A stretch of DNA of 64,000 nucleotides from Arthrobacter sp. SLBN-112 (GTDB lineage Bacteria > Actinomycetota > Actinomycetes > Actinomycetales > Micrococcaceae), in contig NZ_VFMU01000001.1 in NCBI RefSeq assembly GCF_006715225.1, positions 2,046,001-2,110,000 of the forward strand, given 5' to 3'. Positions within the stretch are counted from its first letter, which is position 1. The number at the start of each line of letters is the position of its first letter. This document shows, piece after piece, positions 48,693-59,336 of the stretch. The position numbers and the translations under genes are program-made. Below the pieces are notes generated by a model, which was given only the letters and a program-made list of their open reading frames with translations, was not told where the DNA came from and did not search any database.

Positions 48693-49952
48693 TTACCTGG
48701 CCTGCAGGGTTTGGTTAAGGCGCGCGTCCAGCAGTCCGGCTGCGACTGCTGGTGCCAGGCCGGGCGCCAGCGGAAGGCGCGGGACCACCAGGCAGTGCCA
48801 GAGGTGGTAGATGTCGGCCTTGCCTGACCATACGGTCGAGCTGACATTGCCGTTCTCGTCGAGTTCCTGCTTCCAGGAACCATGCTCGTAGTCGATGAAC
48901 CAATCGCGCGCGTGGTCCCAGATCCGCTCGTACCAGTCCGCATACTTCTTGTCGCCGGTGGCGATATACAGGGCTGCCGCACCGCCGATCGCCTCTGCAG
49001 GCACCCACCGGATCCGGGTGGTGACAACGGGCTTTCCTTCCCAGTCCACCGTGTACACAAAACCGGGATGGCCGTCCGGCTGCCAGGCGTCGCGGATGGC
49101 GGCGTCGAACAGACCCCGCGCGTCGTCGAGGAGCCAGGCGGGGACGTCCAGGCCGCGGGCTTCGAGTCCGGCCCGGACGTGGAGGAGCAGGCGCGCCCAC
49201 TCCACCCAGTGCCCTGGGGTCCCGCCGTAGGCACGGAACTGGCTGGCCCGGTCATCGGTGTTGTACTCAGGCATCGGGTTCCACTCCGGGTCGAAGTGCT
49301 CGAACACCCGGTAGTTGTTGTTGCGCGCGAAATTGTGGATGAGTACTTCGGCGATGTGCAGGGCCCGATCGAGCCAGCGATTCTCCCCGGTTACGTCGGC
49401 GACGATGAGGTACGCCTCCACCGAATGCATGCTCGCGTTCCCGCCACGATAAGCCTCGGTGTCGGTGAACTCCCGGTTCCACGAGTCGAAGCACATGTTC
49501 GCCTTGTGGTCCCAGAATTTCGTGTCGGCTACCCGCAGCGCCTCGTCGAGAAGTTCGCGGGCTCCAGGCCGCCCGGCTGCGACCGCACTGGCAGCGGCGA
49601 GGAGCACGAAGGAGTGCTGGTAGCCGGACTTCGTATCGTTCACGGGACCGTTCCCGTCCACCTCGGCGTACCAGCCGCCGAACTCATCGTCGTGGAGGAC
49701 CCCGTTGAGGGCCGCGATGCCATGGTCCACCAGCGTCGCCGCACCGGGACGTCCCATCAGGGCGGCAACAGCGAAGCTGTGGGTCATCCGCGCGGTGATC
49801 CAGAGGTGTGTGGGTTTGTCGGCGAACACCTTGCCGTAGTTGTCCAGCCAGCCGAATCCGGTGGGGACCTTGGAAGCCTCGGCGAAACGGATCAGCCGGT
49901 CGGTTTCCGCCTCGAGCCATCGTGCGTGGGCGGGGCTGTCGAGCCACGTCAT
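48693..49952 (-). CDS. yihS: sulfoquinovose isomerase (YihS-like aldose-ketose isomerase)
   Basis: A 419-residue AGE-superfamily protein very close in pattern and length to E. coli YihS. TGFGWLDNYG, THLWITARMTH, FGGWYAEVDG, RGGNASMHSVEAYL, ARNNNYRVFEHFD, YGGTPGHWVEWARL and YHLWHCLVVPRLPLAPG follow the YihS order. The active-site residues I recall for YihS (R55, H176, H248, H383) fall at identical numbers here. It would convert sulfoquinovose to 6-deoxy-6-sulfofructose in the cytoplasm. It is the last gene of the nine-gene operon with SF kinase and SFP aldolase. Mannose isomerase is the alternative, made unlikely by the context. AAAGAGGA precedes the ATG. Confidence 0.9.
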   Translation of the reverse strand: MTWLDSPAHARWLEAETDRLIRFAEASKVPTGFGWLDNYGKVFADKPTHLWITARMTHSFAVAALMGRPGAATLVDHGIAALNGVLHDDEFGGWYAEVDGNGPVNDTKSGYQHSFVLLAAASAVAAGRPGARELLDEALRVADTKFWDHKANMCFDSWNREFTDTEAYRGGNASMHSVEAYLIVADVTGENRWLDRALHIAEVLIHNFARNNNYRVFEHFDPEWNPMPEYNTDDRASQFRAYGGTPGHWVEWARLLLHVRAGLEARGLDVPAWLLDDARGLFDAAIRDAWQPDGHPGFVYTVDWEGKPVVTTRIRWVPAEAIGGAAALYIATGDKKYADWYERIWDHARDWFIDYEHGSWKQELDENGNVSSTVWSGKADIYHLWHCLVVPRLPLAPGLAPAVAAGLLDARLNQTLQAR

Positions 49953-49991
49953 GTCGTGTCCTCTTTCTGGTAAGTAGGTGGGGAATTCAGG

Positions 49992-50735
49992 TCAGCCGAC
50001 GGCATCGGATACACCGCGGATGATGGTGGCGGCCGCTCCCAGGTAGGCCAGGACGATCAGGAGGATCTGTGCGGCGCGGGCCGGGATGTGTTTGGCGGCG
50101 AGGTCTCCGAGCACCAGCCCTGCCAGGCAAGCGACGGCGACGGCGAGCCACATGGCCAACGGCAGCACGGGGAACGAGGCGGGGGCCGTGATCGCCTTTG
50201 AAATCAGCGAGAACGTGCCGATGGTGAAGAAGTACGGCTGCATGGTGGCGGCAAAGGACTTATGCTGCCAACGGGTGGCGATGGAGTACATGCTGACGGC
50301 AGGTCCGCCAACACCGGCCGCGGTATTCATGAAGCCGCTGAGGCCGCCGGCAGTGAAGAGGTAGCGCCGGCGCTCCGGAAGGGTGGCGGATTTCAGGACC
50401 AGCAGGACGGTCAGGCCGACGGCGAGGATCACCCCGATCGAGATTTCCAGGACGGCCGGGGGGATGAAGCGGATCAGGATGGCGGCCGGGATGATGCCCG
50501 CGAGGGCCGAGGCTGCGAGCAGCAAGTACCGCTTCCAGTCGATGTCCCGGACCACCCGGAAGATGATGGCCCCCGCCGTCACGGCTCCGCAGACATTCAC
50601 CAGCACCACTCCCTCCACCGGCCCCAGGAGCAGGACCAGGAAGGGAGCGGCCACCAGCGCGAAGCCCATGCCGGTGACACGCTGCATCCCGGCACCCATG
50701 ACGACGGCGCCCAGCACCAGCCCGGTGGTCAGCAC
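49992..50735 (-). CDS. TauE/SafE-family sulfonate or sulfite exporter
   Basis: A 247-residue membrane protein with about eight hydrophobic segments. The family features are GAGMQRVTGMGFALVAAPFLVLLLGP (in pieces GMGFALVAAPFLVLL) and GGLSGFMNTAAGVGGPAVSMY. In sulfoglycolytic clusters TauE/SafE proteins export the C3 end product, here probably sulfolactate. It abuts the dehydrogenase stop directly (50736). Confidence 0.87.
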   Translation of the reverse strand: MLTTGLVLGAVVMGAGMQRVTGMGFALVAAPFLVLLLGPVEGVVLVNVCGAVTAGAIIFRVVRDIDWKRYLLLAASALAGIIPAAILIRFIPPAVLEISIGVILAVGLTVLLVLKSATLPERRRYLFTAGGLSGFMNTAAGVGGPAVSMYSIATRWQHKSFAATMQPYFFTIGTFSLISKAITAPASFPVLPLAMWLAVAVACLAGLVLGDLAAKHIPARAAQILLIVLAYLGAAATIIRGVSDAVG

Positions 50736-58489: not shown

Positions 58490-58505
58490 TGTTGGAATTG
58501 CAACA
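58490..58505. promoter_or_regulatory. DeoR-family operator candidate 2
   Basis: TGTTG-GAATTG-CAACA, same half-sites and spacing as 57251-57266, 45 bases before the DeoR start. Suggests autoregulation. Confidence 0.8.
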
Positions 58506-58550
58506 TCCCGCCAGGCTCCTGCCCGGCGCATTGGGGAGGGAGAACGGCCG

Positions 58551-59336
58551 ATGAGCACCGCATATGAAGAGGCGCCGCTGACACCCCGCCAGCGCACCAT
58601 CCTGGATGAACTGGGTCGCAGGGGGTTCATTTCCACCAATGACCTGGCGGAGACGTTTGCCGTTTCCGACATGACCGTGCGGCGGGACACCCGCGTCTTG
58701 TCCAAGCGTGGGCTGGCGCGGGTGGTCCACGGTGGCGTCAGCGCGGTGGACGGGCATGGCCAGAACGCAAACTTCGCGGCGCGCGTCCGCGAGGACTCGG
58801 ACGCGAAGCTCCGGGTGGCCCGCGCCTGCCTATCGCTGGTCGGTGAGCGGGATGCCATCATCCTCGATGCCGGTACCACCACCTACCAGATCGCGCAGGA
58901 ACTGCCCACGTCCTTCACCGGGACCATCATCACGCACTCAGCGCCCGCCATCCAGCGCTGCCTGCAGCTGACGGCGGCACGCACCATCTGCCTGGGCGGG
59001 GAGCTGCTGCTGGACAGCCAGGCGTTCAATGGCCCCATGACAATCAGCGCTGCCGCCGGGCTGCGTGCCAAGACAGCCTTCATCGGAGTCAGCGGCATCC
59101 ATGACGAGGCCTTCTACATTGAGCGCGACGTGGAGCGCGCCACTAAGATCGCCCTTATGAATGCAGCGGAACAGGTCGTGGTGGTGGCAACGCACCAGAA
59201 GATGCTGCGCTATGCGCTGGCACGGTTGGCGGCTTTCGACGCGGTGGACATCCTGGTGACGGATGTGCCGCCGCCGAGGGAAATCGAGAATGCCTTGAGT
59301 GCCGCCAACGTCAAGCTGATGGTGGCGGCCGCATGA
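58551..59336 (+). CDS. DeoR-family regulator of the sulfoquinovose cluster
   Basis: A 261-residue protein. N-terminal HTH (TPRQRTILDELGRRGFISTNDLAETFAVSDMTVRRDTRVL, seen in parts) and C-terminal DeoR sensor domain (ILDAGTTTYQIAQELP; AFIGVSGIHDEAFYI) similar to YihW/CsqR, the sulfoquinovose regulator of E. coli. The effector is likely SQ or a phosphorylated intermediate. GGGAGGGAGA precedes the ATG. Its stop overlaps the next start by ATGA. Confidence 0.88.
   Translation: MSTAYEEAPLTPRQRTILDELGRRGFISTNDLAETFAVSDMTVRRDTRVLSKRGLARVVHGGVSAVDGHGQNANFAARVREDSDAKLRVARACLSLVGERDAIILDAGTTTYQIAQELPTSFTGTIITHSAPAIQRCLQLTAARTICLGGELLLDSQAFNGPMTISAAAGLRAKTAFIGVSGIHDEAFYIERDVERATKIALMNAAEQVVVVATHQKMLRYALARLAAFDAVDILVTDVPPPREIENALSAANVKLMVAAA

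Follow-up and report, generated by a model that had tools for sequence, protein, structure and literature searches.

A block of genes at positions 48693-59336 of a 64,000-nucleotide stretch of Arthrobacter sp. SLBN-112 (the window; contig NZ_VFMU01000001.1) raises the question of whether this organism carries a complete pathway for sulfoquinovose (SQ), the plant sulfosugar of which about 10 billion tons are made per year (PMC10755693), or an ordinary hexose cluster that resembles the E. coli yih genes through family likeness only. A preliminary description had proposed a modified sulfoglycolytic Embden-Meyerhof-Parnas (sulfo-EMP) cluster, complete in itself, in which an aldehyde dehydrogenase (ALDH) stands in the place of the reductase YihU. 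We re-read the block using open reading frame (ORF) calls and Pfam, and all of the gene families named in that description were found where it had placed them, within one block (Table 1; strands and coordinates are in window numbering). The locus is almost certainly an oxidative YihS/YihV/YihT-type sulfo-EMP cluster of the kind described in Arthrobacter sp. AK04. The proposed interpretation is thus supported, with the addition of a gene, sqgA (57338-58480), that had not been named; the word "complete" holds only when this gene is counted.

The isomerase and aldolase are of the YihS and YihT type

The isomerase is identical to E. coli YihS at 245 of 413 positions (59.3%), and scored 577.6-590.7 bits with its top four chains, namely 2rgk (YihS, 590.7), 2afa, 2zbl and 7ag4 (sulfoquinovose isomerase), while the next chain reached only 151.8 bits. 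The aldolase shares 143 of 291 positions (49.1%) with E. coli YihT. It scored 275.8 bits against the sulfofructose-1-phosphate aldolase 7ag1, whereas the best chain that is not YihT reached 55.7 and the top-scoring tagatose aldolase 54.1. Its Lys192 aligns with Lys193 of E. coli YihT, which we take to be the Schiff-base lysine, and a lysine is present at this position in 37/37 hits. By these alignments the two enzymes clearly group with YihS and YihT and not with other sugar enzymes, as had been proposed.

A cluster for mannose, tagatose or fructose would fit the results obtained with NCBIfam, in which the window proteins gave generic matches below the cut-off (D-mannose isomerase, tagatose aldolase, ribokinase). 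However, when E. coli YihS, YihT and YihV were searched against NCBIfam as a control, they likewise gave only sub-cut-off generic matches, and those of the window proteins are therefore no argument against the assignment. As E. coli YihS and YihT show the same sub-threshold matches, identification as a D-mannose isomerase and a tagatose aldolase was rejected. The aldolase scores given above also speak against a hexose cluster, as does the sulfosugar hydrolase encoded beside these genes.

SqgA, a GH188 sulfoquinovosidase

The product of sqgA matched 8qc2 with 758 bits over 379 residues and 8qc3 with 752.9 bits over 374, followed by 8zn9 (368.3 bits) and then by a different protein, an inositol dehydrogenase (80.9 bits). 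The first two structures are FlSqgA and ArSqgA, the latter from Arthrobacter sp. U41 (Kaur et al., 2023, PMC10755693), and SqgA was characterized in that work as an NAD+-dependent sulfoquinovosidase of glycoside hydrolase family 188 (GH188). ArSqgA contacts its ligand through K107, Y136, R166, L170, K172, E189, H193 and H321 (PMC10755693). All eight are found in the window protein at a constant offset of 19 (numbering of the 399-aa ORF), that is, the five sugar contacts (K107, Y136, E189, H193 and H321) and the three sulfonate-binding residues (R166, L170 and K172). These contacts, together with a glutamate two residues before R166, were invariant in 40/40 loci from 36 distinct genomes. Glu163 is put forward in the paper as a possible catalytic residue; with the same offset the window protein has V there and E one position further, which we take as a matter of numbering. 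Relative to ArSqgA and FlSqgA, as these are presented in PMC10755693, the protein shows ordinary orthologue differences only, and it is, judged by its sequence, a close SqgA orthologue. On the basis of this match and the contact residues, a sulfoquinovosidase gene is thus present within the window itself. Retention of the sulfonate-binding R, L and K is not what one would expect of an ordinary hexose cluster, and clusters of the present kind support growth on SQ (PMC8873060); we regard the hexose explanation as scarcely credible.

No match to GH31 (PF01055) above the Pfam cut-off was found in the genome, where a single sub-threshold match (21.3 bits, cut-off 23.5) lies at C1:361681. A search of the same genome for a second close SqgA gave nothing better than 50.1 bits. 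Curated models label SqgA as an inositol-dehydrogenase-like oxidoreductase, so the gene is easily missed.

The kinase

The preliminary description had also called the kinase YihV-like, a claim that its clade supports although other placements are not firmly rejected. The protein is identical to E. coli YihV at 103 of 268 positions (38.4%). Its top match in the Protein Data Bank is YihV (7ag6, 105.6 bits; next 76.1), and when E. coli YihV was searched in the genome of the window this kinase came first, with 100.7 bits against 67.8 for the next. Several records label its close relatives as sulfofructose kinase, others as PfkB family kinase or ribokinase. The kinase grouped with YihV and GH188-linked kinases in a tree of 20 rows (support 99/99), apart from RbsK, PfkB and FruK. 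A tree of 36 rows again placed it with YihV and the GH188-linked kinases, in a group of 27 rows (99/97) that excluded RbsK, PfkB, FruK, KdgK, YdjH, FrlD, PsuK and two further kinases encoded by this genome. Foldseek ranked YihV first and second for the kinase model (predicted local distance difference test score of 70).

Several results weigh against this assignment, which is among the weakest links of our interpretation. The kinase has a very long stem, with 3.43 and 4.11 changes per column; a constrained placement with ribokinase-like proteins or with PfkB/FruK cost only 8.4 log units (approximately unbiased (AU) test p 0.082/0.085), so that the rival placements are only marginally disfavored; a clade of the remaining sulfofructose kinases without the window kinase was not rejected (p 0.41); and in VIA-align the Z score of the model for YihV tied with those for ribokinases. 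Given the long stem, the marginal AU values and the tie in Z, the assignment of a substrate rests on clade, cluster and relatives. Opposite K27, N109 and R138 of E. coli YihV, which bind the sulfonate, the window kinase has R, T and no residue in a weak pairwise alignment. Of the three core enzymes, the aldolase and isomerase are close to their E. coli counterparts and only the kinase has so long a stem. It is conceivable, though rather unlikely, that the actinobacterial sulfofructose kinase clade gained sulfosugar recognition apart from proteobacterial YihV, or rebuilt its sulfonate pocket without the YihV residues.

The aldehyde dehydrogenase and the end product

In RlGabD an Arg171/Arg289 pair is proposed to bind the sulfonate, and a Trp-Asn-Phe motif is also described (PMC10599462). 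By motif spacing relative to the RlGabD residues reported there, the window ALDH has corresponding residues in the catalytic Cys291 and Glu257, in W158-N159-F160, and in R167 and R285 (numbered in the 488-aa reading from 52202), and all of these were identical in 38/38 tblastn hits from 34 distinct genomes. The counterpart arginines of human succinate-semialdehyde dehydrogenase bind a carboxylate according to the same paper, and the arginines thus do not discriminate between substrates. The substrate of the ALDH is, like the kinase, among the weakest links.

Alternatively, the ALDH may act on succinate semialdehyde or another aldehyde, with sulfolactaldehyde (SLA) being reduced to 2,3-dihydroxypropane-1-sulfonate by a YihU-family enzyme encoded elsewhere. 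The closest solved relative of the ALDH is indeed a succinate-semialdehyde dehydrogenase, and the genome has nine YihU-family matches of up to 35% identity. However, none of the nine lies inside the block, where the GabD-type ALDH occupies the place of YihU as the preliminary description had stated, and the ALDH is present in 33/33 judgeable clusters of the genus (see below). Furthermore, isolates AK01 and AK04, both with a cluster of this type, use SQ for growth and release sulfolactate (PMC8873060), and in AK01 the pathway proteins, the dehydrogenase and SqgA included, were raised on SQ (PMC8873060, PMC10755693). We therefore consider the reductive route very improbable and retain the oxidative one, in which the direction of the reaction means that NADH would be gained instead of spent.

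Full desulfonation in the same cell was considered by searching for two families. Xsc had no match above the cut-off in the genome (13 were sub-threshold), and GD_AH_second, the domain family given for sulfolactate sulfolyase in the source used, was not found there. Desulfonation was rejected on the basis of these two families, and sulfolactate is thus probably excreted rather than broken down by either of these routes.

Proposed pathway and comparison with known systems

Our results establish which genes are present, their residues and synteny, and the lack of matches above the cut-off for GH31 and for the two desulfonation families. The substrates and direction of the steps, as well as export, the ATPase and regulation, are what we infer as follows. 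Uptake of SQ or its glycosides would be carried out by the binding protein with the two permeases, energized by a shared ATPase encoded elsewhere. SqgA with bound NAD+ would cleave the glycosides by oxidizing C3 transiently. The YihS-like enzyme would convert SQ to sulfofructose, the YihV-like kinase would phosphorylate this to sulfofructose-1-phosphate, and the YihT-like aldolase would split the product into dihydroxyacetone phosphate and SLA. The GabD-type dehydrogenase would then oxidize SLA to sulfolactate with a gain of NAD(P)H, the TauE protein would export the sulfolactate, and the DeoR protein would probably control a divergent promoter between the kinase gene and sqgA.

The gene content agrees with the modified sulfo-EMP cluster of AK04 (Kaur et al., 2022, PMC8873060), in line with the likeness to Arthrobacter clusters noted previously: both have YihS, YihV, YihT, a GabD-type SLA dehydrogenase, an ATP-binding cassette (ABC) importer, TauE and an IolG-like gene, to which the passages of that paper on the cluster assign no function. 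As described in its text, the AK04 cluster shows no difference in gene content from the window, except that those passages mention no regulator. The paper also lists clusters identical to or syntenic with that of AK04 in many Arthrobacter and Pseudarthrobacter genomes, one of which, Arthrobacter sp. MYb23, is among our loci (L030) and has YihS beyond the DeoR gene. The E. coli yih system shares the isomerase, kinase and aldolase steps, but Pfam named no counterpart of YihQ, YihR, YihU, YihO or YihP in the block, which has GH188, an ALDH and an ABC importer instead, and whose kinase and regulator are only 38% and 27% identical. The sulfo-EMP2 pathway of Firmicutes, as outlined in PMC9594981 and PMC12890257, passes through the same intermediates but uses SqvD, SqiK and SqiA, whereas the window enzymes are of the YihS/YihV/YihT kind. 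With homologues of all three, an SLA dehydrogenase homologue in place of an SLA reductase and no GH31 over the cut-off, the locus has the genomic features of the Arthrobacter-type oxidative sulfo-EMP. The cluster type is therefore already known, and no departure from the published kind was seen in the window. What we add is small: a conserved divergent promoter region, an empty site, and relatives with a possible fucose-isomerase-like replacement of YihS.

Importer and regulation

Of the ABC importer named in the preliminary description, the cluster (50736-55302) encodes a binding protein and a pair of permeases; among the ORFs of at least 150 aa, none for an ATP-binding subunit was found. The importer may be powered by a shared ATPase, as the genome has two MalK-type ATPase matches outside the cluster, at C1:650252 and C1:1896561.

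The DeoR regulator is identical to E. coli CsqR at only 69 of 258 positions (26.7%). Between the GTG of the kinase gene (57199) and the ATG of sqgA (57338) lies a 138-bp spacer containing a 59-base block (57232-57290) in which 38/59 columns were invariant in 36 sequences, compared with 6/21 and 6/24 in the adjoining coding ends and 11/21 and 20/47 in the rest of the spacer as counted. The block has an inverted repeat with arms at 57235-57243 and 57272-57280 (89% complementary). These features are consistent with divergent promoters and a candidate operator of the DeoR protein within 57200-57337. A sigma-70 scan gave no site in this region, and one site, inside the kinase gene, in the whole of 48600-60300 (0.8 expected). 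Inner half-sites at about 57251-57270 were considered by eye as an operator supported by covariation, which we do not claim, as they vary between sublineages and their centers do not coincide. For SQ together with Pseudarthrobacter or a DeoR operator, a literature search of limited coverage found only PMC8873060 and two papers on E. coli.

Distribution, variant loci and an empty site

SqgA (E <= 1e-60) was present in 36/121 sampled genomes of the genus, including that of the window. Stretches were cut for the other 35, of which two end near SqgA at contig ends. In the remaining 33 judgeable loci, which were chosen by the presence of SqgA, YihT, YihV, SqgA, the ALDH, TauE, the binding protein and both permeases occurred together in 33/33 cases, and this joint occurrence argues that the arrangement is not due to chance. 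DeoR was found in 32/33 and a YihS match in 31/33, located just beyond DeoR in six; in one, YihS is cut off, about 11.5 kb away. The left neighbor varies, with the major facilitator superfamily (MFS) gene of the left flank adjoining the cluster in 19/33.

We also examined the flanks in eight SqgA-less genomes that were selected because they carry a close 2-hydroxyacid dehydrogenase. In six of these, no more than about 1.1 kb separates the MFS gene from the dehydrogenase; in the other two, the MFS gene is either missing or located 4 kb away on the opposite side. In blastn comparisons with five of these genomes, homology ended at window positions 48602-48626 and resumed at 59299-59331; the intervening sequence in the relative is 136-205 bp long. 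The whole cluster (48627-59312) is thus absent where the flanking genes are adjacent, which indicates that a block of about 10.7 kb was gained or lost as a unit at this site in these genomes.

The 2-hydroxyacid dehydrogenase gene (59333-60250) begins within the end of the DeoR gene, with a four-base overlap, and adjoins the cluster in 26/35 genus loci (in one it is only 58% identical). According to PMC11465081, a D-3-phosphoglycerate dehydrogenase is encoded in a different kind of GH188 cluster. The gene was rejected as a pathway member, since homologues (E <= 1e-40, including paralogues down to 42% identity) occur in 65/85 SqgA-less and 30/36 SqgA-bearing genomes, and since it stands beside the MFS gene in 6/8 genomes without the cluster.

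A few loci depart from this layout. In two related Arthrobacter clusters, L134 (8185-9777, minus strand) and L033 (6532-7959, minus strand), a protein with a fucose-isomerase C-terminal domain is encoded between the aldolase and the binding protein, and the fetched stretch has no YihS match. Against a Pfam cut-off of 29.3 bits, the domain scored 30.1 in L134 and a sub-threshold 26.8 in L033. These clusters may be hybrids that use an SqvD-like isomerase, the fucose-isomerase-like gene taking the place of YihS. In the fetched stretch of L144 (19.7 kb), neither YihS nor DeoR had a match, and no replacement isomerase was noticed among its listed ORFs. A gene of the M24 peptidase family lies between permease 2 and the ALDH in three of six variant loci (L134:3924-5069, L139:5285-6397 and L144:5470-6390, all on the minus strand). 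Separately, 18 of 75 GH188 loci (L034-L108) had a YihV-like kinase match and no YihS match in the fetched stretch, namely L034-L036, L039, L040, L043, L044, L048-L050, L055, L059, L062, L070, L075, L079, L089 and L095; all of them except L062 had a weak YihT-like match (24-30% identity).

Gene layout and starts

Homology and spacing indicate that the longest ORFs are too long for several genes. They suggest starts at 52175 for the ALDH, 55302 for the binding protein, 57199 (GTG) for the kinase and 57338 for SqgA, whose longest ORF is 57281-58480; the binding-protein start was picked by eye and from lengths in relatives. The N-terminus of the binding protein appears, by eye, lipoprotein-like with an RR motif.

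Table 1. Features of the sulfoquinovose cluster in the window.
Feature	Position	Strand	Basis
yihS-like sulfoquinovose isomerase, 419 aa, GlcNAc 2-epimerase family	48693..49952	-	PF07221
TauE/SafE permease, probable sulfolactate exporter	49992..50735	-	PF01925
GabD-type aldehyde dehydrogenase, probable sulfolactaldehyde dehydrogenase, 479 aa	50736..52175	-	PF00171
ABC importer permease 2	52240..53055	-	PF00528
ABC importer permease 1	53060..54016	-	PF00528
Extracellular solute-binding protein, 429 aa	54013..55302	-	PF01547
yihT-like class I sulfofructose-1-phosphate aldolase, 294 aa, DeoC/LacD family	55394..56278	-	match to 7ag1
yihV-like sulfofructose kinase, 300 aa, PfkB family, GTG start	56297..57199	-	match to YihV 7ag6, tree
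Putative divergent promoter/operator region between kinase and sqgA	57200..57337	.	conserved block, inverted repeat
sqgA, GH188 NAD+-dependent sulfoquinovosidase, Gfo/Idh/MocA protein, 380 aa	57338..58480	+	match to 8qc2/8qc3
DeoR-family regulator	58551..59336	+	PF00455 + PF08220

Significance

With the window, the soil route of SQ breakdown already on record is extended by one genome. The useful points are practical ones: sqgA is easily missed under the names given by models, the cluster occurs in 36/121 genomes sampled from the genus, and it is gained or lost as a single block wherever an empty site was visible.

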